From: a virus
Length of the DNA stretch: 35,428 nt
Virus record (IMG/VR): IMGVR_UViG_3300011114_000437
Location: 1 to 35,428 of that record
Direction: 5' to 3' (one strand)
Numbering within the stretch: the first letter of the stretch is position 1; every line of letters begins with the position of its first letter. Both the position numbers and the translations under genes were made by a program. Below the pieces are notes generated by a model, which was not told the origin of the DNA, did not search any database, and worked only from the letters and a program-made list of their open reading frames with translations. Below, piece by piece: positions 8,661-34,970 of the stretch.

Positions 8661-8966
8661 ATGAGTCAATACGAACCAAAAAAGAAAAAGACAGGTGGTA
8701 GAACTAAAGGAACACTTAATAAAACTACTGCACAAATTAAAGATATGATTGTTGGATTAGTAGGAACACAAATGGAGAAGTGGCCAGTAGTTATAGATAA
8801 GATGATGAAAGAAGACCCTGCCGAAGCAATGAAGATAACGGGTAGGTTAATTGATTATGTATTACCTAAACAAAGTAAGATTGATATTGAGGGTGAATTA
8901 AGACATCGTGTAGAAAAAATTACTATTGAAATAAAAAATGGCAATGATAAAACAAAAGCAGATTAA
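8661..8966 (+). CDS. Terminase small subunit-like protein
   Basis: 101 residues. N-terminal basic segment with KKTGGRTKGTLNKTTAQIKD, typical of small phage proteins placed before TerL in Bacteroidota phages. A helical middle follows (PVVIDKMMKEDPAEAMKI) and a VLPKQSKI motif near residue 70. DNA recognition for packaging is inferred from motif and from the large subunit only 390 nt downstream. Its 3' end overlaps the inserted GIY-YIG gene by 29 nt. Confidence 0.6.
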   Translation: MSQYEPKKKKTGGRTKGTLNKTTAQIKDMIVGLVGTQMEKWPVVIDKMMKEDPAEAMKITGRLIDYVLPKQSKIDIEGELRHRVEKITIEIKNGNDKTKAD

Positions 8967-9366
8967 ATATTATACATATATTCATAAGCGTTTAGATGGT
9001 AGTATATTTTATGTAGGCAAGGGGTGTAGAAATAGAGCATATACACGTTATTATAGAAATTCCAATTGGCATATTGAAGCAAATAAAGGATATGAAATTG
9101 AAATAGTTAACGATAATTTATTAGAAAAAGATGCATATGCTTTGGAAAAGAAATTGATATTATATTATGGAATAGATAATCTTACTAATATTGATAAAGG
9201 TGGAAAAAGTATAAAACCTATTGATGAAAATCTTGAAAGATTAAAAGCTAAATTAGATACATTATTCAATCTAATATACATTAAGCATAATATACATAAA
9301 CTTATTAAAGATGAAAGTATTAAAGAGCAATTACTATTATTAAATCAGTTAAGTAAATGGAACTGA
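8938..9366 (+). CDS. GIY-YIG endonuclease inserted between the terminase genes
   Basis: 142 residues. N-terminal GIY-YIG-like core: YYTYIHKRLDGSIFYVGKGC (residues ~10-29) with downstream Arg residues (RNRAYTRYYRN) and a catalytic-type Glu region (ALEKKLILYYG). The C-terminal third is helical. The gene overlaps the small terminase gene by 29 nt and the large terminase gene by 10 nt, so it is wedged into a normally compact gene pair, as free-standing homing nucleases often are. Confidence 0.75.
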   Translation: MAMIKQKQIKYYTYIHKRLDGSIFYVGKGCRNRAYTRYYRNSNWHIEANKGYEIEIVNDNLLEKDAYALEKKLILYYGIDNLTNIDKGGKSIKPIDENLERLKAKLDTLFNLIYIKHNIHKLIKDESIKEQLLLLNQLSKWN

Positions 9367-10535
9367 AGATAACAACAACTAAAACGTTTGAGAATTGCTA
9401 TAACTCTAAAGCAAAAATACAATTACATCAAGGTAGTGCAAGAAGTGGCAAGTCATATAGTATAATTCAGTTTCTAATAGTAAAAGCATTAGAAGAAAAG
9501 AAATTAATATCAGTAGTAAGAAAAACATTTCCAGCACTTAGAACATCTGCATTACGTGATTTTAAGGATGTCATGAAAGAATTAGGTCTATGGGATGAGG
9601 AAAGATGGATGGCAACTGAGCATACATTTACATTTGATAATGATTCACAAATAGAATTCTTTTCAACCGATAGTGCAGAAAAGCTGAAAGGATTAAAAAG
9701 AGATATACTCTGGGTAGATGAAGCAAATGAATTAAATCATGAGCAGTTTATGCAACTAGCCATTAGAACAACAGGTCAAATACTCCTATCATTCAACCCC
9801 TCATTTTCACCAAAGCATTATATAATGAGTGAGTTAGCGGTTAGAGATGATACAGAATTATTTGTTACTACATACAAAGACAATCCTTACCTACCATTAG
9901 AGCAAGTTCAGTTCATTGAAAAGTATAGAGATACAAACCCACGCTATTGGATGACATATGGTTTAGGGCAGTTTGCAGTGAATGAGAAGCAGATATATGA
10001 ATTTGAGATAGTAGATGAGTTTGATTTCGATACTGCTGATTTTATTTGCTTTGGTTTAGATATTGGATATGTGAGTGACCCTACGGCATTAGTCGGTATA
10101 TGGAAAGCGGGAAGTAAGCTAATAATAAATGAACACATATATCAGAAAGGATTAATTACACAGCAAATATTAGACGTCTTAAAAGGTAATGTATCAGAAA
10201 GAGATATCATAGTAGTAGATAGTGCAGAACCAAGATTGATAGACGAGATTAAAAGAGGTGGGTTTCCATTAGCAAGAGGAGTTAAGAAAGGTAAGGACAG
10301 TATTCAATGGGGTATAGATTTAGTTAAGCAATATAATTTGGTAATACCGAAAAATAATAGTAACTTAATAGAAGAATTATATTCATACGAATGGGTAGAT
10401 GATGGCAATGGTGGTGTAACAAATATACCAATAGATGCGAACAATCACTTATTAGATGCTCTTCGTTATGGTGTAATGGAAATGTTAAATGCAAAAAAGA
10501 TTAATGCAGGTAAATATCAAATATCAATAAGATAA
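9357..10535 (+). CDS. terL: Terminase large subunit
   Basis: 392 residues, complete. ATPase domain: Walker A GSARSGKS (26-33), Walker B ILWVDE (117-122), coupling motif SFNPS (145-149). Nuclease domain: GLDIGYVSDPTALV (Asp235), VVDSAEPRLIDE (Asp288), NNHLLDALRYG (Asp367). This is the PBSX/Terminase_3 pattern; the protein cuts concatemers and pumps DNA into the prohead. Its start overlaps the GIY-YIG gene by 10 nt. All key residues are intact. Confidence 0.95.
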   Translation: MELKITTTKTFENCYNSKAKIQLHQGSARSGKSYSIIQFLIVKALEEKKLISVVRKTFPALRTSALRDFKDVMKELGLWDEERWMATEHTFTFDNDSQIEFFSTDSAEKLKGLKRDILWVDEANELNHEQFMQLAIRTTGQILLSFNPSFSPKHYIMSELAVRDDTELFVTTYKDNPYLPLEQVQFIEKYRDTNPRYWMTYGLGQFAVNEKQIYEFEIVDEFDFDTADFICFGLDIGYVSDPTALVGIWKAGSKLIINEHIYQKGLITQQILDVLKGNVSERDIIVVDSAEPRLIDEIKRGGFPLARGVKKGKDSIQWGIDLVKQYNLVIPKNNSNLIEELYSYEWVDDGNGGVTNIPIDANNHLLDALRYGVMEMLNAKKINAGKYQISIR

Positions 10536-11916: not shown

Positions 11917-11934
11917 GGTGTTAAAAAGATAAAC
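11917..11934 (+). promoter_or_regulatory. Late-gene motif GGTGTTAAAAAGATAAAC (copy 1)
   Basis: An 18-base sequence repeated exactly at 20490-20507 and ending 9 nt before the ATG (11944) in both cases. It is preceded by AATACCTTTT, and a similar context occurs at 17549. Candidate phage late promoter or leader element; it does not fit the host -33/-7 pattern. Confidence 0.55.
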
Positions 11935-12236: not shown

Positions 12237-14750
12237 ATGTCTCAATTAACTAAAATACAATTAGAATCAGAAAATCAAAGTAGTTTTCCGAATAATACTT
12301 CAAACTTTATTACGCCACAAGCACTAAGAGAGTTTAATACAGATATGATTCAATCTACTGTTAACCAAACGATATATACAGCTGATAGTGCTAGTTTTTC
12401 TCAAAGGATTACTCAGAACCAAGGAGTGCAGGGAATACAAGGTGTGCAAGGGTTACAAGGAATACAAGGAGTTAGTGGCTCACAAGGTATACAAGGTGTT
12501 CAAGGTTCTGATGCAACAGTACAAGGTATACAAGGTTCAACAGGTATACAAGGGGTACAAGGGTTATTAGGAACGCAAGGGGTACAAGGAACACAAAGTA
12601 CACAAGGTCAAACTGGTCCACAAGGATATACCGGTAATACGGGTAATGTTGGTTCAACCGGAGCACAAGGTATACAGGGTATTCAAGGTGTACAAGGATT
12701 AGATGGTCAATTTGCGGGACAAGGGGTACAAGGTATTCAAGGTAATACTGGAACACAGGGAGCACAAGGTATACAAGGTATAACCGGTGCTCAAGGGGTA
12801 TCTAACATATCAGTACAAGATGAAGGAAGTATATTAGGAAACGCAACATCATTTAATTTTAATGGAGCGGGTGTATCTGCATCAGTAAGTGCTGGAACGG
12901 CATCAATAACAATAGCAGGTGGTGGAGGTAGTACATTCCCTTATACGGGTAGTGCATTAATCACAGGAAGTTTAGGTGTGACAGGAAGTATTAGTTCAAC
13001 ATTGAATAGTACATTTAACGGAGTAACAATTGGTATAGGAAGTGGCAGTGTTACTAGTAACATAGGAATAGGTAGTGCATCATTACAATCTAATACAGGT
13101 GTAAATAGTATTGGTATTGGAAATGCTTCATTACAATTTAATAAATCAAGTAATAACACAGCAGTAGGTAACTATACTTTAGCATATCAACAATTTACTG
13201 GAGCAGGAGCAAACACTGCAATTGGATTGAGTGCATTTAGTTTGTTAGGTAGCGGTTCAGCAGCACTCGCAGCACAATTATCACAAAATACAGCAGTTGG
13301 TAATAGCGCCGGCTTTGGTTTAATAGTAGGTGCTAGAAATACTTTTATAGGTAATACAGCCGGTTCTAATGCAGATAATGTTGAAAGAATGACTGGAGTA
13401 GGTAGAGGTACATTAAATGTAATAGGTAGTAACTCTATTAATAATGGAAGTGGTTCAAAATATAATACAGCAATAGGTCATAACGCATTATTCCAATTAC
13501 AATCAGGTTCTAATAATACAATTATACATGGTGGTAGTGCAGCGGGTGAAGGATTTATAACTGGTAGTAATAATAATGTAGTAGGAATGGATAGTGGATT
13601 ACCTTCTTCAATGGAAGGAAATACTATTATCGGTAGAGGTATAACAGGATTAAGTTCACCATTATCAAACAATGTTATCTTAGCAGATGGTAAGGGTAAT
13701 ATTGCATTACAAAAGAATGGTACAACGGGCTCAGTAATAATAGGAACAGGATTAGAAGTAACAAATAATGTAACTGCATCAGCATTCACTGCTATAGCTG
13801 GTAATAATAAAGCATTCTCATATTTAGCAGCATCAAGTGGTGGTGTTAATAATACATTCAATACAGCATTAGGTAAAGATTATTTAGATATTTATCAGTA
13901 TCAAGGACAAGCATACGCATTTAATATGCATTTGACGAGTGACCAATTAAATACCTACTCTGGTTCTCAATTCGCATTCCAATTACAAACGAATGGTAGT
14001 GGTGTATCAATACCTGGTGGTGGAGCAACATACTTCTCAATGGTATCTGCATCTTATAGTTCATCGGTAGGACCTGGTACTGAAATACCTGGCTTGAATG
14101 TATTAGGAGCTGCATTGTTCTTAGATATGAAAGCACCTGCTACATTTGAACAAAAGGTATATATGAATAAACCTTTGTATGTATCATCATCAGCGGGAAG
14201 TAGTGGAGCTACGTTAACACTTAATCAACAATTAGGTAGTACAGTTTTATTAGCAACAGGTAGTGTTATAATTACAGGCTCATTAAGTGTAAACGGAAAT
14301 ACTATTACATCATTAGCAGCTGGAGCATTTAATTCAACACAAACTCAATCGGGTAGTGCAGCGGTATCTCAATCAATGACATTTAATAATAGTGATATTA
14401 ATAATCAAGGTATATCAGTACAAAGTAGTTCTCAATTGACAATAACAAATGGTGGAACTTATAATATACAATTCTCAGCAGAATTATTAACATCAACCGG
14501 ACAAGATGATGTATATATTTGGTTAAAGAAAAACGGAACTAATGTAAGTAATAGTGCAACAAAAGTAGTATTAGCTAATAACGATGCAATAGTAGCAGCA
14601 TGGAATTGGGTTGTAACTGCTGGTCCTAGTGAGTATTTTGAAATAGTTTGGCAAAGTAGAGATGGACATGCAACTTTATCAGCATCAAATAGTACTGGTA
14701 ACATTCCATCAATTCCATCAGTAATAGCAACAGTAACACAAGTTAACTAA
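12237..14750 (+). CDS. Collagen-like tail fibre / adhesin with YadA-head-like and C1q-like parts
   Basis: 837 residues. Residues 1-60: virion-attachment-like N-terminus (FITPQALREFNTDMIQSTVN). Residues ~61-187: Gly-x-Gln/Gly collagen-like triplets. Residues ~230-490: beta-helix-like repeats with NTAVGN, NTAIGLS, NTFIGNTAG, TAIGHNALF, resembling trimeric autotransporter (YadA-type) heads. Residues ~690-837: a jelly-roll-like end (GTYNIQFSAELLTSTGQDDV, VYIWLKKNGTNVSNSATKV) like C1q/TNF-type tips of bacterial collagen-like proteins. The whole suggests a trimeric fibre for host adsorption. Seventeen nt after the small Cys protein. Confidence 0.75.
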   Translation: MSQLTKIQLESENQSSFPNNTSNFITPQALREFNTDMIQSTVNQTIYTADSASFSQRITQNQGVQGIQGVQGLQGIQGVSGSQGIQGVQGSDATVQGIQGSTGIQGVQGLLGTQGVQGTQSTQGQTGPQGYTGNTGNVGSTGAQGIQGIQGVQGLDGQFAGQGVQGIQGNTGTQGAQGIQGITGAQGVSNISVQDEGSILGNATSFNFNGAGVSASVSAGTASITIAGGGGSTFPYTGSALITGSLGVTGSISSTLNSTFNGVTIGIGSGSVTSNIGIGSASLQSNTGVNSIGIGNASLQFNKSSNNTAVGNYTLAYQQFTGAGANTAIGLSAFSLLGSGSAALAAQLSQNTAVGNSAGFGLIVGARNTFIGNTAGSNADNVERMTGVGRGTLNVIGSNSINNGSGSKYNTAIGHNALFQLQSGSNNTIIHGGSAAGEGFITGSNNNVVGMDSGLPSSMEGNTIIGRGITGLSSPLSNNVILADGKGNIALQKNGTTGSVIIGTGLEVTNNVTASAFTAIAGNNKAFSYLAASSGGVNNTFNTALGKDYLDIYQYQGQAYAFNMHLTSDQLNTYSGSQFAFQLQTNGSGVSIPGGGATYFSMVSASYSSSVGPGTEIPGLNVLGAALFLDMKAPATFEQKVYMNKPLYVSSSAGSSGATLTLNQQLGSTVLLATGSVIITGSLSVNGNTITSLAAGAFNSTQTQSGSAAVSQSMTFNNSDINNQGISVQSSSQLTITNGGTYNIQFSAELLTSTGQDDVYIWLKKNGTNVSNSATKVVLANNDAIVAAWNWVVTAGPSEYFEIVWQSRDGHATLSASNSTGNIPSIPSVIATVTQVN
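12418..12798 (+). repeat. Collagen-type triplet repeat (Gly-Ile/Val-Gln-Gly)
   Basis: Near-continuous 9-nt period (G-x-Q-G-x-Q triplets; recurring words such as GGTATACAAGG and GGTGTACAAGG). In-frame expansion or contraction by recombination is likely. Not a CRISPR: there are no unique spacers and the array is coding. Confidence 0.8.
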
Positions 14751-14935: not shown

Positions 14936-16645
14936 ATGGCTCAATATAACGCACAACAACTAACATCAGCATCTAATGCAACTTATGTAACTAATATATC
15001 AGGTGCTATTGATGCGCTAAGTGTAAGAACTCTAAATACGGATTGGGTTAGTTCATCAGCATTATTAAATCAAGCAAATACATTCACAGGTAATCAAACA
15101 ATTACTGGTAGTTTAAATATATCAGCAAATATTGTAATACCAAATACAGCAGCAGGTGCAGGTGAAACTAAAGTTGTTGTATTAGATAGTGCAGGACAAA
15201 TTAAATGGAGAACTGATTTATCTTTAACAGGTAGTCAAGGTATACAAGGAACACAAGGTGGAATAGGTGTGCAGGGTATTACTGGTAGTATTGGAGTTCA
15301 AGGAGTTAGTGGGTCATTAGGTTCACAAGGAGCAAGTGGACAATCAATTCAAGGTTCTCAAGGTAGTGTAGGTGCACAAGGTACATCTACACAAGGTGTT
15401 CAAGGTACTAATGGTATACAAGGTAGTAATGGTGGACAAGGAACACAAGGAAATACAGGTCCTTCTGGTTCACAAGGTATGGCATCAACGATACAAGGAC
15501 CACAAGGTATAACGGGTACGCAAGGTCCAACTTCACAAGGAGCACAAGGTGCAACGGGAGCAGGAACACAAGGTTCACAAGGAACTATTGGTTCACAAGG
15601 AATTACAGGCACAGGTTCTCAAGGAGCAGCAGGTGGACAAGGTATTCAAGGAACAACGGGAACAGTAGGACAAGCAACACAAGGAACGCAGGGTGCAACG
15701 GGTACCGGTACGCAAGGTGCTATTGGTTCACAAGGTGCAATCGGTAGTCAAGGTGCAACTGGTACAGGAACACAGGGAGCAACGGGTAGTCAAGGTACAA
15801 CGGGTAGTGGTACGCAAGGCATACAAGGATTTATAGGAATACAAGGACCACAAGGAACAGCAGGTGCACAAGGTACAACCGGCGGGCAAGGTGCACAAGG
15901 AACAACAGGGACAGGAACACAAGGAGCTACGGGTTCACAGGGAGCAACGGGTACTGGAACACAAGGTTCTACCGGTAGTCAAGGTGCAGCCGGTGGACAA
16001 GGTATTCAAGGTATTACTGGAACTGGCACGCAAGGAGCAACGGGTAGTCAAGGTACAACTGGTACAGGAACACAGGGAGCAACAGGAGCACAAGGAACAA
16101 CAGGCACAGGTTCGCAAGGTGCAACAGGAGCACAAGGTGGTGCTGGTACACAAGGTACACAAGGTACAACGGGAGCAGCAGCACAATTAGTAATCAATAG
16201 TAATACTGATAATAATGTTTTAACTGCAACGGGCACTTCTACATTACAAGGTGAAGCGAATATGACATTCAATGGTTCTACCTTAGCAGTAGCGGGAGCA
16301 ATAACTGCAACGGGTAACATTACAGCATATTATTCTGATGGTAGATTAAAAGAAATTATTTCTAAAATTGATTCACCATTGGAAAAGTTAAAAGCGATAA
16401 GTGGTTACTATTACACTCAGAATAAATTAGCAGAAGATTTTGGTTATAACGATTATAGTAGACAAGTAGGTGTGATAGCACAAGAGGTAAAAGAAATTCT
16501 ACCTGAAGTAATTGATAGAGCACCTTTTGATAATGATGGATATGGTGGAAGTAAAAGTGGTGAAAACTATTTAGCAGTACACTACGAAAAGATTATTCCA
16601 TTGTTGATTGAAGCAATAAAAGAATTGGATTCTAAAATTAAATAG
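14936..16645 (+). CDS. Collagen-like tail fibre with C-terminal S74 self-cleaving chaperone
   Basis: 569 residues. Residues ~1-95: attachment domain. Residues ~98-415: long collagen-like region (GTQG, GSQG, GATG units). Residues ~416-465: a beta segment ([20 protein letters not shown]). Residues 467-569: Peptidase_S74 intramolecular chaperone, with S467-D-G-R-L-K472 as the Ser-Lys catalytic pair and the family-typical [15 protein letters not shown] and the C-terminal coiled coil [17 protein letters not shown]. In characterised phages this domain trimerises the fibre and cuts itself off. Both catalytic residues are present, so autoprocessing is expected. Confidence 0.85.
15228..16176 (+). repeat. 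Long collagen-type triplet repeat in the S74 fibre
   Basis: About 950 nt of Gly-x-y coding repeat with 9-nt periodicity and longer higher-order units (for example [12 protein letters not shown] recurs several times). It gives long spurious ORFs in other frames on both strands. A likely site of length variation. Confidence 0.8.
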
Positions 16646-17567: not shown

Positions 17568-17578
17568 GTGTTAAAAAG
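17568..17578 (+). promoter_or_regulatory. Late motif core GTGTTAAAAAG (copy 2)
   Basis: The core is preceded by AATACTTTTTTATTTGGAT (17549-17567), which parallels the upstream context of the copy at 11917. Here the core ends only 2 nt before ATG 17581 (a second ATG follows at 17584), so if it is a promoter the transcript would start inside the gene's first codons, or the true start is further in. Confidence 0.45.
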
Positions 17579-17580
17579 GT

Positions 17581-19242
17581 ATGATGGCAAATCTTACAAA
17601 ACACGTTATAGCAAATGGTGGTAAAATATATCCACTAATAATCCCAGCAGTAGAAACAAACGGAACAGGTCTAATGAATCCATCTATCTTTAATGATAAT
17701 GGAAAACTTATATGCAATTTAAGGCATGTAAATTATACTTTAGTTCATTGTGAAGGAAAACAGGTCTTTGGAAATAGACATGGACCCCTAGCTTATCTTA
17801 ATCCCGAAAACGATTTAACTCTCCGCACAACCAACTTTATGTTAGAGTTGAGTAAAGACATGTCCATAAAGAGATATACGAAAATTGATACCTTAAAATG
17901 GGATGTAGCACCATTGTGGGAGTTTGTAGGATTAGAGGATGGTAGATTAGTTAGGTGGGATGATACATTATGGATATCAGGCGTTAGAAGGGATACGACA
18001 ACTAATGGTGAAGGTAGAATGGAACTATCCGAATTAGATAAAGATTATAAAGAAATAAATAGATATAGAATAGAAGCACCAATTAACAAAGAAAGTTATT
18101 GTGAAAAGAATTGGATGGTAGTAGATGATTTACCAATGCATTATGTTAAATGGGCTAATCCAACTGAATTAGTTAAAGTAGATATCAATACATTACAAAG
18201 TGAGCAAGTTCTATTAAAAGAAGGATGGGGAACTTTACAAAATATGAGAGGTTCGTCACAAGTCATTCGTTATGGTGATAAAAGGATTTGTATTATACAT
18301 GAAACTGATTTGTGGAAAAATAAATTGGAACAAAGAAATGCTAAGTATACTCATAGATTTATAGTATGGGATTTAGATTGGAACATAGAACATATATCAG
18401 AAGCATTTAGTTTTATGGATGGAGAGATAGAGTTTTGTTGTGGAATGGCATTTGATAAGGATGATTTACTTATCTCATTTGCATTTCAGGATAACGCGGC
18501 ATTTATATTAAAGATACCACAATCACAAATCAATGCAATTATAGGAATATACGATGATTTTTCATTTGGAAAAGTTGATGGTCAATTAAGAGATGTAATA
18601 GAAAGAGAGATATTCAGAGATAAAGTTTATGAGAAATATGCAAAAGTTAAAGAAGGTGATGTAGTTGTTGATATTGGAGCTAACGTTGGTGCATTTACAT
18701 ATTCAATATTAAATAAGAAACCATCAAAAGTTTATTGTATAGAACCATCTAACTGCTTAATAAGTACATTAAAGAGTAATACTAAAAATGAATGTGTTTA
18801 CATAAATAAAGCAATAGAGGAAAAGAATGGAACTGCGGTATGTAATGAAGAAGTGCATGTATATCATCATTCAGGCTTAGAATATGAAACGATATCATTT
18901 ACTAATTTTATAAAAGAATTTGATATAAAGAAAATAGATTTTATGAAAGTAGATTGTGAGGGTGGCGAGTATCATATTTTTACAAAAGAAAACTTAAAAT
19001 GGATTAAAGCCAATGTATCTAATATAGCAGGTGAATTACATTTGTGGGGTACACATGATAGTTTAGATAATTTTATTACATTCAGAGATAATATACTAGC
19101 TAATGTAAATGAATACCATATACTAAATGCACATACATTAGAAGATGTTAAAAGTGATATATGGGATAATGAATGGTGTAAAAACTATTCATGGGGTAAT
19201 ACAGAACTAGCACAATTATTATTTTATATAAAAAACGATTAA
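17581..19242 (+). CDS. Fusion: GH130/GH43-like beta-propeller plus FkbM-type SAM methyltransferase
   Basis: 553 residues. Residues ~1-325 resemble the five-bladed beta-propeller of glycoside phosphorylases/hydrolases: MNPSIFNDNGKLICNLRH, FGNRHGPLAYLN, FVGLEDGRLVRWDDTLWISG, YCEKNWMVVDDLPMHYVKWA, MRGSSQVIRYGDKRICIIHE. Residues ~345-553 are an FkbM-like methyltransferase: SAM motif I VVVDIGANVGAFTYS (from residue 361), IEPSNCLISTLKSNT, and IDFMKVDCEGGEYHIF (near 455). The fusion suggests binding or trimming of a sugar and its methylation. The substrate could be host surface glycan or virion glycan (inference). Overlaps the next gene by one base. Confidence 0.6.
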   Translation: MMANLTKHVIANGGKIYPLIIPAVETNGTGLMNPSIFNDNGKLICNLRHVNYTLVHCEGKQVFGNRHGPLAYLNPENDLTLRTTNFMLELSKDMSIKRYTKIDTLKWDVAPLWEFVGLEDGRLVRWDDTLWISGVRRDTTTNGEGRMELSELDKDYKEINRYRIEAPINKESYCEKNWMVVDDLPMHYVKWANPTELVKVDINTLQSEQVLLKEGWGTLQNMRGSSQVIRYGDKRICIIHETDLWKNKLEQRNAKYTHRFIVWDLDWNIEHISEAFSFMDGEIEFCCGMAFDKDDLLISFAFQDNAAFILKIPQSQINAIIGIYDDFSFGKVDGQLRDVIEREIFRDKVYEKYAKVKEGDVVVDIGANVGAFTYSILNKKPSKVYCIEPSNCLISTLKSNTKNECVYINKAIEEKNGTAVCNEEVHVYHHSGLEYETISFTNFIKEFDIKKIDFMKVDCEGGEYHIFTKENLKWIKANVSNIAGELHLWGTHDSLDNFITFRDNILANVNEYHILNAHTLEDVKSDIWDNEWCKNYSWGNTELAQLLFYIKND

Positions 19243-20459
19243 TGATAAACACATTATTAAAAGCATACATTAACGATACTACAAATCCAAATATCTGTTT
19301 TGAATTAGGATATGAATATGAGAAGTTAGGTCAAACAGCATCAGCAGCAGGTTTCTATTTAAGAGCAACTGAGTTCGGTAATAATACGGAATTGAATTAT
19401 GAAGCAATGTTAAGAATGGCTTTATGTTTTGAAAAGCAAGGTAATAGATGGTTTATGATTAAAGGATTAATACTAAGAGCAATTAGTTTACTACCTAATA
19501 GACCGGAAGGACATAATTTATTAGCAAGAACATACGAAAGATGCAAAGAATGGCAAGAAGGATATACGGCAGCAGTAATAGGAAAGAATATAGCATGGGA
19601 TGAAAAGGATTCCCTAACTGATTTAGAATATCCTGGCGATTGGGTATTTGATTTTGAAAAGGGTGTATGTGCATGGTGGATAGGATTATTTGATGAGAGT
19701 GTAGCAATATTCAGAGAGTTAAATAAAAGAACTGATTTATGGCCTAATTATAAAACAGCAGTAGAAAATAATTTAGCTTCTTATGGTAACAATTGGAAAC
19801 AACCATCCATATATACCAATATACAATTTCCTAAACTAAGATATAAATTTGATGGTTCACATTTAATAAAGAAAAACTATTCACAATCATATCAGGACCT
19901 ATTTGTTCTTATGGCATTAGATGGTAAAGAGTTTGGTAGTTGGATTGAGATTGGTTGTGCACACCCTACTTACGGAAATAATACAAAATTATTAGAGGAA
20001 TTAGGTTGGGATGGTGTTAGCATTGATATTGATACAAATGTTGTCAGTAATTGGGTTGATAATAGAACAACGATACCCTATCAAATGGATGCAACTAAAG
20101 TAGATTGGGAAAAGATGCCTATATGGGGATTGGATAATATTACAGATTACTTACAAATAGATGTAGACCCACCTAATATTAGCTATGAGGTCTTATTAAA
20201 GATACCATTTTGGAAACATAAGTTCAGAGTAATTACATTTGAGCATGATTATTATATGGATGATAGTGTAAGAGAAAAGAGCAGAAAATATTTACGTTCA
20301 TTCGGTTATGAGTTAGTAGTAAACGATATAGCAGTAGATGAATACAGCTCGTATGAGGATTGGTGGGTACATCCTGAATTGGTTAATCCGAAAATAATCA
20401 ATCTTTTAAGGAGTAATTCAGAAATAAATCCTGCAAAGGGATATATTTTTGGTGAATAG
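19242..20459 (+). CDS. TPR-domain protein with FkbM-like methyltransferase domain
   Basis: 405 residues. Residues ~1-180 are helical repeats of TPR type (NICFELGYEYEKLGQTASAA, RAISLLPNRPEGHNLLARTY). Residues ~215-380 are a methyltransferase-like domain: YSQSYQDLFVLMALDGKEFG, SWIEIGCAHPTYGNNTKLLE (near residue 234), LGWDGVSIDID, DYLQIDVDPP, RVITFEHDYY. The E-I-G-x-A/C-x-P ... NT-x-x-LE ... GW-x-G-x-SID run is a Methyltransf_21/FkbM hallmark. Its start overlaps the previous stop (TAATG), so the two proteins are probably co-produced and act together on glycans; whether on virion or host is unknown. Confidence 0.6.
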   Translation: MINTLLKAYINDTTNPNICFELGYEYEKLGQTASAAGFYLRATEFGNNTELNYEAMLRMALCFEKQGNRWFMIKGLILRAISLLPNRPEGHNLLARTYERCKEWQEGYTAAVIGKNIAWDEKDSLTDLEYPGDWVFDFEKGVCAWWIGLFDESVAIFRELNKRTDLWPNYKTAVENNLASYGNNWKQPSIYTNIQFPKLRYKFDGSHLIKKNYSQSYQDLFVLMALDGKEFGSWIEIGCAHPTYGNNTKLLEELGWDGVSIDIDTNVVSNWVDNRTTIPYQMDATKVDWEKMPIWGLDNITDYLQIDVDPPNISYEVLLKIPFWKHKFRVITFEHDYYMDDSVREKSRKYLRSFGYELVVNDIAVDEYSSYEDWWVHPELVNPKIINLLRSNSEINPAKGYIFGE

Positions 20460-20489: not shown

Positions 20490-20507
20490 GGTGTTAAAAA
20501 GATAAAC
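20490..20507 (+). promoter_or_regulatory. Late-gene motif GGTGTTAAAAAGATAAAC (copy 3)
   Basis: Identical to 11917-11934 and with the same 9-nt gap to the start codon (ATG 20517). GTGTT and the following AACAC (20505-20509) can also pair as a small hairpin. It heads the scaffold/capsid operon. Confidence 0.6.
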
Positions 20508-33896: not shown

Positions 33897-34970
33897 ATGG
33901 ATAATCAACAATATGAAACTTACGAATTAATTCTTAAAGATGATGAGGATGAAGTATTTGCTTTATCTCTTGTCAATTCACCAGCAATCCAAAGTAATTT
34001 TGTATACTTTTCTGAGGATGGTATAAAAGAAGTAATTAAATTTGCAACAACAGATGAGGACCAAAGAACAATAGTAGGTCCAATTCTAATTCCTGATATG
34101 AAAATATTAAGAATGAAAGAGGATGGTAAAACTCCTTACTATGTAACATTTAGTAAAGATACAGTCCGCAAGATAGCTCAGAAATATATTAGAGATAATA
34201 ATGCAAACAATATTACATTAGAGCATGAAAAAAATGTAATGGGTGTATCATTAGTAGAAAGTTGGGTATCGGAAAGTTCTAAGTATGATAAGAGTAAAGC
34301 ATATGGTTTGACAATAAAGCCAGGAACGTGGATGGGTGTATTCAAAGTAGATAATGGAGAAGTTTGGAATAGGGTTAAAAGTGGTGAATATAAAGGAATA
34401 AGTTTAGAAGGTCTTTTCTCACACGAATTAATTAAAGCAAGTTTATTAGATTTAGATTTATTTGAAAAAGATATAACTGATTTAAGTGATATAGAAGCTG
34501 AAATAGTATTAAGTAGAATGAGAGCAATAATCAAAAAAGATAATAGATACGGAAGGGGTGAAAGAATTGAAATGGAATCTTATTCTGATTATGGTAGTGG
34601 TGTAAGAGGAAACGCTAAAAGAGGCAGAGAGTTAAACGAAAAAAATGGTAATAAATGTGCAACACAGGTTGGTAAAGTAAGAAGTGCTCAATTAGAAGCA
34701 GGAGAACCAATATCAGTTGAAACGCTAAAGAGAATGTACTCATACCTAAGTAGAGCAGAAGCATACTATGATGAAACAGATATGAATGCTTGCGGGACAA
34801 TTAGCTTCTTACTTTGGGGCGGTAAAGCAGGATTATCATATAGTAGAAATAAATTAAAAGAATTAGGATTGATTGAAGCAGAAGCACAACCATCAATACC
34901 AAACTCAACATATCCTGGCCAAAGAGCAAAAAAGATTATAGCACCAGCATTAATTGCACAAACTAAATAA
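33897..34970 (+). CDS. Putative prohead protease, XkdF/S78-like, with extra C-terminal domain (version B, long form)
   Basis: 357 residues. Residues ~1-222 align with the 988-1758 protein (see that entry for shared blocks; here EH at LEHEKNVMGVSLVESWV and KGISLEGLF). Residues ~223-330 form an added domain: YGSGVRGNAKRGRELNEKNG, KCATQVGKVRSAQLEAGEPI, SVETLKRMYSYLSRAEAYYD, ACGTISFLLWGGKAGLSYSR. This domain is common in phage prohead proteases of this type in my memory; its function is not known to me. The tail QPSI...YPGQ resumes the shared end, so the domain is a clean insertion or loss. Next gene starts 1 nt later. Confidence 0.7.
   Translation: MDNQQYETYELILKDDEDEVFALSLVNSPAIQSNFVYFSEDGIKEVIKFATTDEDQRTIVGPILIPDMKILRMKEDGKTPYYVTFSKDTVRKIAQKYIRDNNANNITLEHEKNVMGVSLVESWVSESSKYDKSKAYGLTIKPGTWMGVFKVDNGEVWNRVKSGEYKGISLEGLFSHELIKASLLDLDLFEKDITDLSDIEAEIVLSRMRAIIKKDNRYGRGERIEMESYSDYGSGVRGNAKRGRELNEKNGNKCATQVGKVRSAQLEAGEPISVETLKRMYSYLSRAEAYYDETDMNACGTISFLLWGGKAGLSYSRNKLKELGLIEAEAQPSIPNSTYPGQRAKKIIAPALIAQTK

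Follow-up and report, generated by a model that had tools for sequence, protein, structure and literature searches.

Gene clusters that modify glycans, and the glycosylation of virion proteins, are already known kinds of system in phages. In mycobacteriophages, virion glycosylation targets proteins of the capsid and the tail tube (Freeman 2023, as cited in PMC12619734), and the sections of PMC7029224 that we drew on describe the host recognition clusters of pelagimyophages as variable islands with tail fibers, glycosyltransferases and radical-SAM cassettes, from which those authors infer modification of the O-chain. Among the sugar enzymes, the GH130 mannoside phosphorylase Teth514_1788 recognizes mannose through Asn28, Asp92 and Asp281; Glu91 precedes the Asp, and a Glu before the catalytic Asp is seen in GH130_NC enzymes (PMC4264767). 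A different kind of component is found in Caulobacter, where the TPR domain of FlmG binds flagellin (PMC7591256). Here we describe a phage gene pair that combines a propeller of the GH130 fold with a TPR protein, close to genes for collagen-like fibers.

Results

The window, by which we mean the whole 35,428-nucleotide stretch of the IMG/VR virus record IMGVR_UViG_3300011114_000437, carries the pair on its + strand. P1 (17581..19242, 553 aa) consists of a GH130/GT108-like propeller followed by an FkbM methyltransferase, and P2 (19242..20459, 405 aa) of a TPR domain followed by a divergent methyltransferase-like domain. Both are intact open reading frames, and base 19242 is common to the TAA stop of P1 and the ATG of P2, giving a 1-base overlap. 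A preliminary description had placed the pair between receptor-binding genes and the capsid operon, and the annotation agrees. Upstream, on the same strand, lie a collagen-like tail fiber (12237..14750; PF01391 E=1e-15; tail fiber PHROGs) and a collagen-like fiber with an S74 self-cleaving chaperone (14936..16645; PF01391 E=1.8e-20, PF13884 E=7.9e-11), each of them a candidate acceptor in the model discussed below. Two short genes separate the second fiber from P1, and 3' of P1-P2 come a scaffold/capsid-like pair and then the portal.

An 11-base motif, GTGTTAAAAAG, has four exact copies in the window where 0.07 would be expected. They lie at 11918, 17568, 20491 and 31723, all on the + strand, and the first three begin 13-26 nt 5' of a gene start (11944, 17581 and 20517, respectively). 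The copy at 17568..17578 starts 13 nt before P1, and the next, at 20491..20501, stands between the P1-P2 unit and the capsid block. In the relative L054 the motif lies 13 nt from P1, the same distance as in the window, and also precedes the next gene. Since P1 and the capsid unit are both preceded by the motif, P1-P2 seem to constitute a separate unit within the virion block. Judged from its sequence and placement, the motif is a probable promoter or leader element of the phage. The preliminary description had called it a late motif; the element itself is real, as its copy number and its retention in L054 indicate, and that it drives late expression is what we infer.

Several other observations concern the genome as a whole. 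The order of genes between 20517 and 24810 (scaffold-like, capsid-like, small genes, portal) is that of Nonlabens phage P12024S, to whose counterpart the capsid-like protein is 27.7% identical, and this likeness suggests that the window comes from a flavobacterial phage similar in size to P12024S. The proteins encoded at 988-1758 and 33897-34970, 33 kb apart, have the same family matches (phrog_24921 and, more weakly, head maturation protease) and are likely paralogs. The terminase ORF in the region 8938-10535 encodes 392 aa that match residues 275-600 of the 807 in phrog_2. It overlaps a homing-endonuclease-like ORF just upstream and is possibly an interrupted terminase; a search of this region for Rfam introns found none.

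The N-terminal part of P1 (residues 1-321; 17581..18543, +) is a five-bladed propeller according to its fold matches, its invariant residues and its alignment to a GH130 profile. The AlphaFold2 model of P1 has a pLDDT of 88, and its best matches in the PDB are GH130 mannoside phosphorylases (Z 23.7 over residues 5-323, 268 residues aligned, 3.2 A). Leishmania GT108 enzymes score Z about 18 in the same fold search and GH43 enzymes up to Z 18.3, so that fold alone cannot separate GT108 from GH43. Model and fold match thus agree with the earlier claim of a glycoside-phosphorylase-like propeller. At the level of sequence the distance is large, with 10-17% identity in structure alignments with GH130 and GT108. 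The propeller falls below the cut-off of the Pfam GH130 family (PF04041), with no match at E<=0.1, a search of its own genome also gave none, and a profile search with the propeller found neither a GH130 sequence nor any other sequence link in the PDB.

The residues that line the expected pocket are nevertheless kept. In a global hhalign comparison with a bacterial GH130 profile, N33, E119-D120, R122, H240 and D304 pair with conserved GH130 residues, the pairing of D304 coming from this global alignment only; the local alignment, at a probability of 90%, is confined to residues of about 29-131 in the window protein, that is, the part with N33 to D120. Of these positions, N33, E119, D120, H240 and D304 are invariant in 34 sequences with identities down to 22%, and R122 is kept in over 90%. 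N33 (17677-17679), E119-D120 (17935-17940) and D304 (18490-18492), all on the + strand, align with the mannose and catalytic residues of GH130. The invariance of these residues, and their pairing with the mannose positions of Teth514_1788, lead us to take the sugar pocket as preserved; the conserved residues speak against a propeller lacking such a pocket, which would have counted against the preliminary description. The domain thus has the GH130 fold, the catalytic Asp and the Asn and Asp of the mannose site, and it scores below the curated cut-off of PF04041; on this sequence evidence we do not file it as GH130.

The BFVD matches of the P1 model include propeller-like proteins from Pithovirus LCPAC, Solivirus, Satyrvirus, Indivirus and Ectocarpus virus, and several of these proteins are annotated as fucosyl- or pyruvyltransferases. 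Pithovirus-like giant viruses hold structural relatives of the propeller at about 20% identity, and the fold may be widespread among giant-virus glycan enzymes.

The C-terminal part of P1 (18598..19239, +) is an FkbM-family SAM methyltransferase with the motifs DIGANVGAF and KVDCEGGE. It scores above the cut-offs of both PF05050 (E=9e-8) and the NCBIfam model TIGR01444 (E=1.2e-15, 58.2 bits against a cut-off of 37.7), so the fusion of a methyltransferase to the propeller holds as first proposed. The N-terminal part of P2 (residues 1-190; 19242..19811, +) is a TPR superhelix, also as proposed: TPR_17 is above cut-off, TPR folds match at Z 15-17, and Foldseek places SPINDLY first, with OGT and GmaR also among its matches. 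It is the constant partner of the propeller, as the 103 loci described below show.

The remainder of P2 (residues 191-405; 19812..20456, +) had been described as a second FkbM-like domain, and here the claim survives in part. The order of strands and helices is that of a Rossmann methyltransferase-like domain, and 4 of 32 relatives match PF05050 at E<=0.01, all weakly. In contrast, TIGR01444 matches none of the 32 members and the profile of the domain does not match the FkbM domain of P1 significantly, so that assignment to FkbM is unsupported and the domain is not demonstrably of that family. Its profile gave no sequence link to the PDB, and no GT family match was found in P2.

IMG/VR contains at least 591 loci with the propeller. 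Among 50,697 phage records the full P1 sequence matched five, two of them through the methyltransferase part only, and among 84,980 species genomes the propeller was found in five binned genome contigs or loci (four labelled MAGs and one binned assembly); a search of plasmids did not find it. The recent capture of a bacterial GH130 pathway gene is unsupported, given only five loci in 84,980 species genomes and the phage-like context, with collagen fibers, of L136, the one of the five whose context was examined. In the non-redundant set of 103 propellers (under 90% identity), a TPR homolog accompanies the propeller in all 103 loci. The two form a single protein in 11 of the 103, which belong to one clade, and 10 of these 11 also include the C-terminal domain of P2. 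The very distant phage DSL-LC01, which lies outside the set, has a propeller without a TPR neighbor. With dN/dS of 0.10-0.27 the pair is under purifying selection. The number of loci, this selection and the constant partner rule out a remnant or a chance pairing; the search for the pair in other phages thus found it conserved, and not in the form of remnants only. One carrier, Synechococcus phage S-SCSM2R, in which the pair is SSCSM2R_194/195, has a recorded host strain, WH7803.

What is constant in the pair is not quite what had been described. The two-gene pair is real, but its essential part is the propeller with the TPR; FkbM is an exchangeable extra that the closest relatives lack. In the nearest relatives of the window (e.g. 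L054, 81% identical) the propeller comes without FkbM, and along the propeller tree P1 has switched architecture at least 18 times. The tails of P1 (n=27) match Radical_SAM in 22, SPASM in 20 and FkbM in 20, and the extra or downstream segments (n=74) match, by Pfam, DUF6445 (14), GT2 (11), FkbM (10), Methyltransf_24 (6), GT25 (6), WavE (3) and mannose-6-phosphate isomerase (1). Both the tails and the next genes thus vary from locus to locus, drawing on FkbM, radical-SAM/SPASM, GT2, GT25 and DUF6445.

DUF6445, a family of unknown function in Pfam, has an invariant HxD...H...R (e.g. L223:11243-11905, L111:7258-7899, L131:11174-11833 and L130:11118-11708), which we take to be the pattern typical of 2OG-Fe(II) hydroxylases and oxygenases. 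Its profile had no significant match among solved oxygenases, and the 2OG-Fe(II) reading therefore rests on the residue pattern. A separate gene of the 2OG-Fe(II) oxygenase family lies immediately 5' in L047 and in two similar loci.

The pair is also linked to collagen-like fibers. In 37 of 65 loci a collagen-like ORF on the same strand ends no more than 2 kb upstream, where random genes from the same loci would give 10.5. At a limit of 100 bp the count is 18 of 65, where 4.0 would be expected; none of 2000 shuffles reached either count. The signal upstream falls with distance, and downstream a collagen ORF lies within 2 kb in 4 of 96 loci. Over the tree the upstream ORF switches between presence and absence 17 times, and so does not represent one inherited arrangement. 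Nearly half of the loci are without a collagen ORF within 2 kb upstream, and several of these have other fiber or virion proteins there. Thr-rich repeats, possible sites of O-glycosylation, were as common in unlinked as in linked fibers, and in the absence of a clear difference they were dropped as evidence.

Discussion

A sugar-enzyme fold with a kept pocket, a constant TPR partner, swappable enzymes and proximity to fibers together suggest a protein acceptor presented by the TPR and a sugar that is set or remodeled by the propeller and afterwards capped by the methyltransferases. Our best explanation, to which we give about even confidence, is that P1-P2 form a complex that modifies glycans on fibers of the phage itself, be they collagen-like or tail fibers; activity, donor and acceptor are all predicted, and collagen-like fibers are the best candidate acceptor. 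The TPR domain would dock the fiber by analogy with the docking of flagellin by FlmG, and the propeller would transfer or remodel a sugar, probably of mannose type, with an NDP-sugar or a sugar-phosphate as donor. O-methylation by the FkbM and P2 methyltransferases could then cap this sugar, and in other phages comparable tailoring would fall to radical-SAM, GT2, GT25 or DUF6445 enzymes. The receptor-binding fiber would end up with a changed surface, affecting adsorption, stability or camouflage.

The preliminary description had left open whether virion or host glycans are the target. That the genes are a glycan-modifying cassette is favored by the evidence, and the placement next to collagen genes, together with a TPR that resembles the acceptor-binding TPRs in protein glycosyltransferases, favors the virion fiber over the host surface, with activity and substrate both predicted. 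The main rival to modification of the fiber is nonetheless that the pair alters surface glycans of the host (O-antigen, capsule or exopolysaccharide) during infection, so that superinfection or re-adsorption to debris is prevented and release made easier; the fibers would then be neighbors because genes for binding and for altering receptors travel together. GH130/GT108 enzymes act on mannans, relatives of the pair have neighbors of LPS type (WavE, GT25 and an rfaE-like protein) as well as mannose-6-phosphate isomerase, and the pelagimyophage cluster, which mixes tail fibers with glycosyltransferases, is read in the sections of PMC7029224 that we used as a set of O-chain modifiers. However, a constant TPR partner suits a protein acceptor better than a polysaccharide, the placement is directional and tied to the end of a fiber gene, often at under 100 bp, and the P1-P2 unit sits in the virion block with a motif that the capsid unit shares. 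We consider an action on host glycans somewhat unlikely.

The same TPR partner, with the frequent SAM-dependent enzymes and glycosyltransferases, suits synthesis or tailoring better than breakdown, and for that reason it is improbable that the propeller is a phosphorylase or hydrolase degrading storage or envelope mannan of the host for carbon or for release of progeny, even though its closest folds are phosphorylases and the Glu before the catalytic Asp, as in GH130_NC enzymes (PMC4264767), is invariant. Proximity to fibers, including one upstream neighbor of a tail-fiber-assembly family, would also be expected if P1 and P2 were non-catalytic assembly factors or structural adaptors made from enzyme folds. 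Against a purely structural role, which we find very improbable, stand the invariant active-site residues, the retained FkbM motifs and the variety of enzymes among the accessory modules.

Modification of the fibers, our preferred reading, has a bolder form that we regard as unlikely as a whole. In it the propeller would found a new virus-centered glycosyltransferase family within the GH130/GT108 fold, its TPR acceptor-binding subunit would serve the O-glycosylation of collagen-like fibers, and interchangeable hydroxylase, methyltransferase, radical-SAM and glycosyltransferase modules would diversify the fiber glycan. If this holds, phages would possess an equivalent of collagen glycosylation, and the pithovirus-like giant viruses would hold structural relatives of it. 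Short of that, a conserved core surrounded by sugar-tailoring enzymes in changing combinations occurs in at least hundreds of uncultured phages and in only a handful of phage genomes in the databases, which points to a common and unstudied route to chemical diversity of phage fibers or host surfaces. If fibers are the target, adsorption and competition between phages would depend on fiber glycans besides fiber sequence. The presence of the pair in S-SCSM2R makes the idea directly testable.

Within the full-text literature that can be searched without subscription we found no description of the propeller-TPR core, and one may exist elsewhere. The pelagimyophage clusters have a similar mix of families, and the propeller with TPR is not described in the sections of PMC7029224 considered here. 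With the mycobacteriophages the pair would have glycosylation of virion proteins in common, but the targets there, in the account cited by PMC12619734, belong to the capsid and the tail tube. The GH130 mannoside phosphorylases (Teth514_1788, BfMGP) and the Leishmania GT108 mannosyltransferase-phosphorylases resemble P1 in their five-bladed propeller and in the aligned Asn/Asp/Asp mannose site; unlike them, the P1 propeller is below Pfam detection, is viral, stands beside or is fused to a TPR and is often fused to a methyltransferase or radical-SAM domain. From the TPR-guided protein O-glycosyltransferases (Caulobacter FlmG, eukaryotic OGT and SPINDLY) the pair is familiar in coupling a TPR superhelix to a sugar-transferring domain, and GmaR joins them in the fold list of the P2 TPR. 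Enzymes of the OGT/FlmG type, however, have a GT-B (GT41-like) catalytic domain on the same polypeptide as the TPR. No such domain was found in P2, where a methyltransferase-like domain follows the TPR; the sugar enzyme here, a GH130-like propeller, usually resides on another polypeptide.
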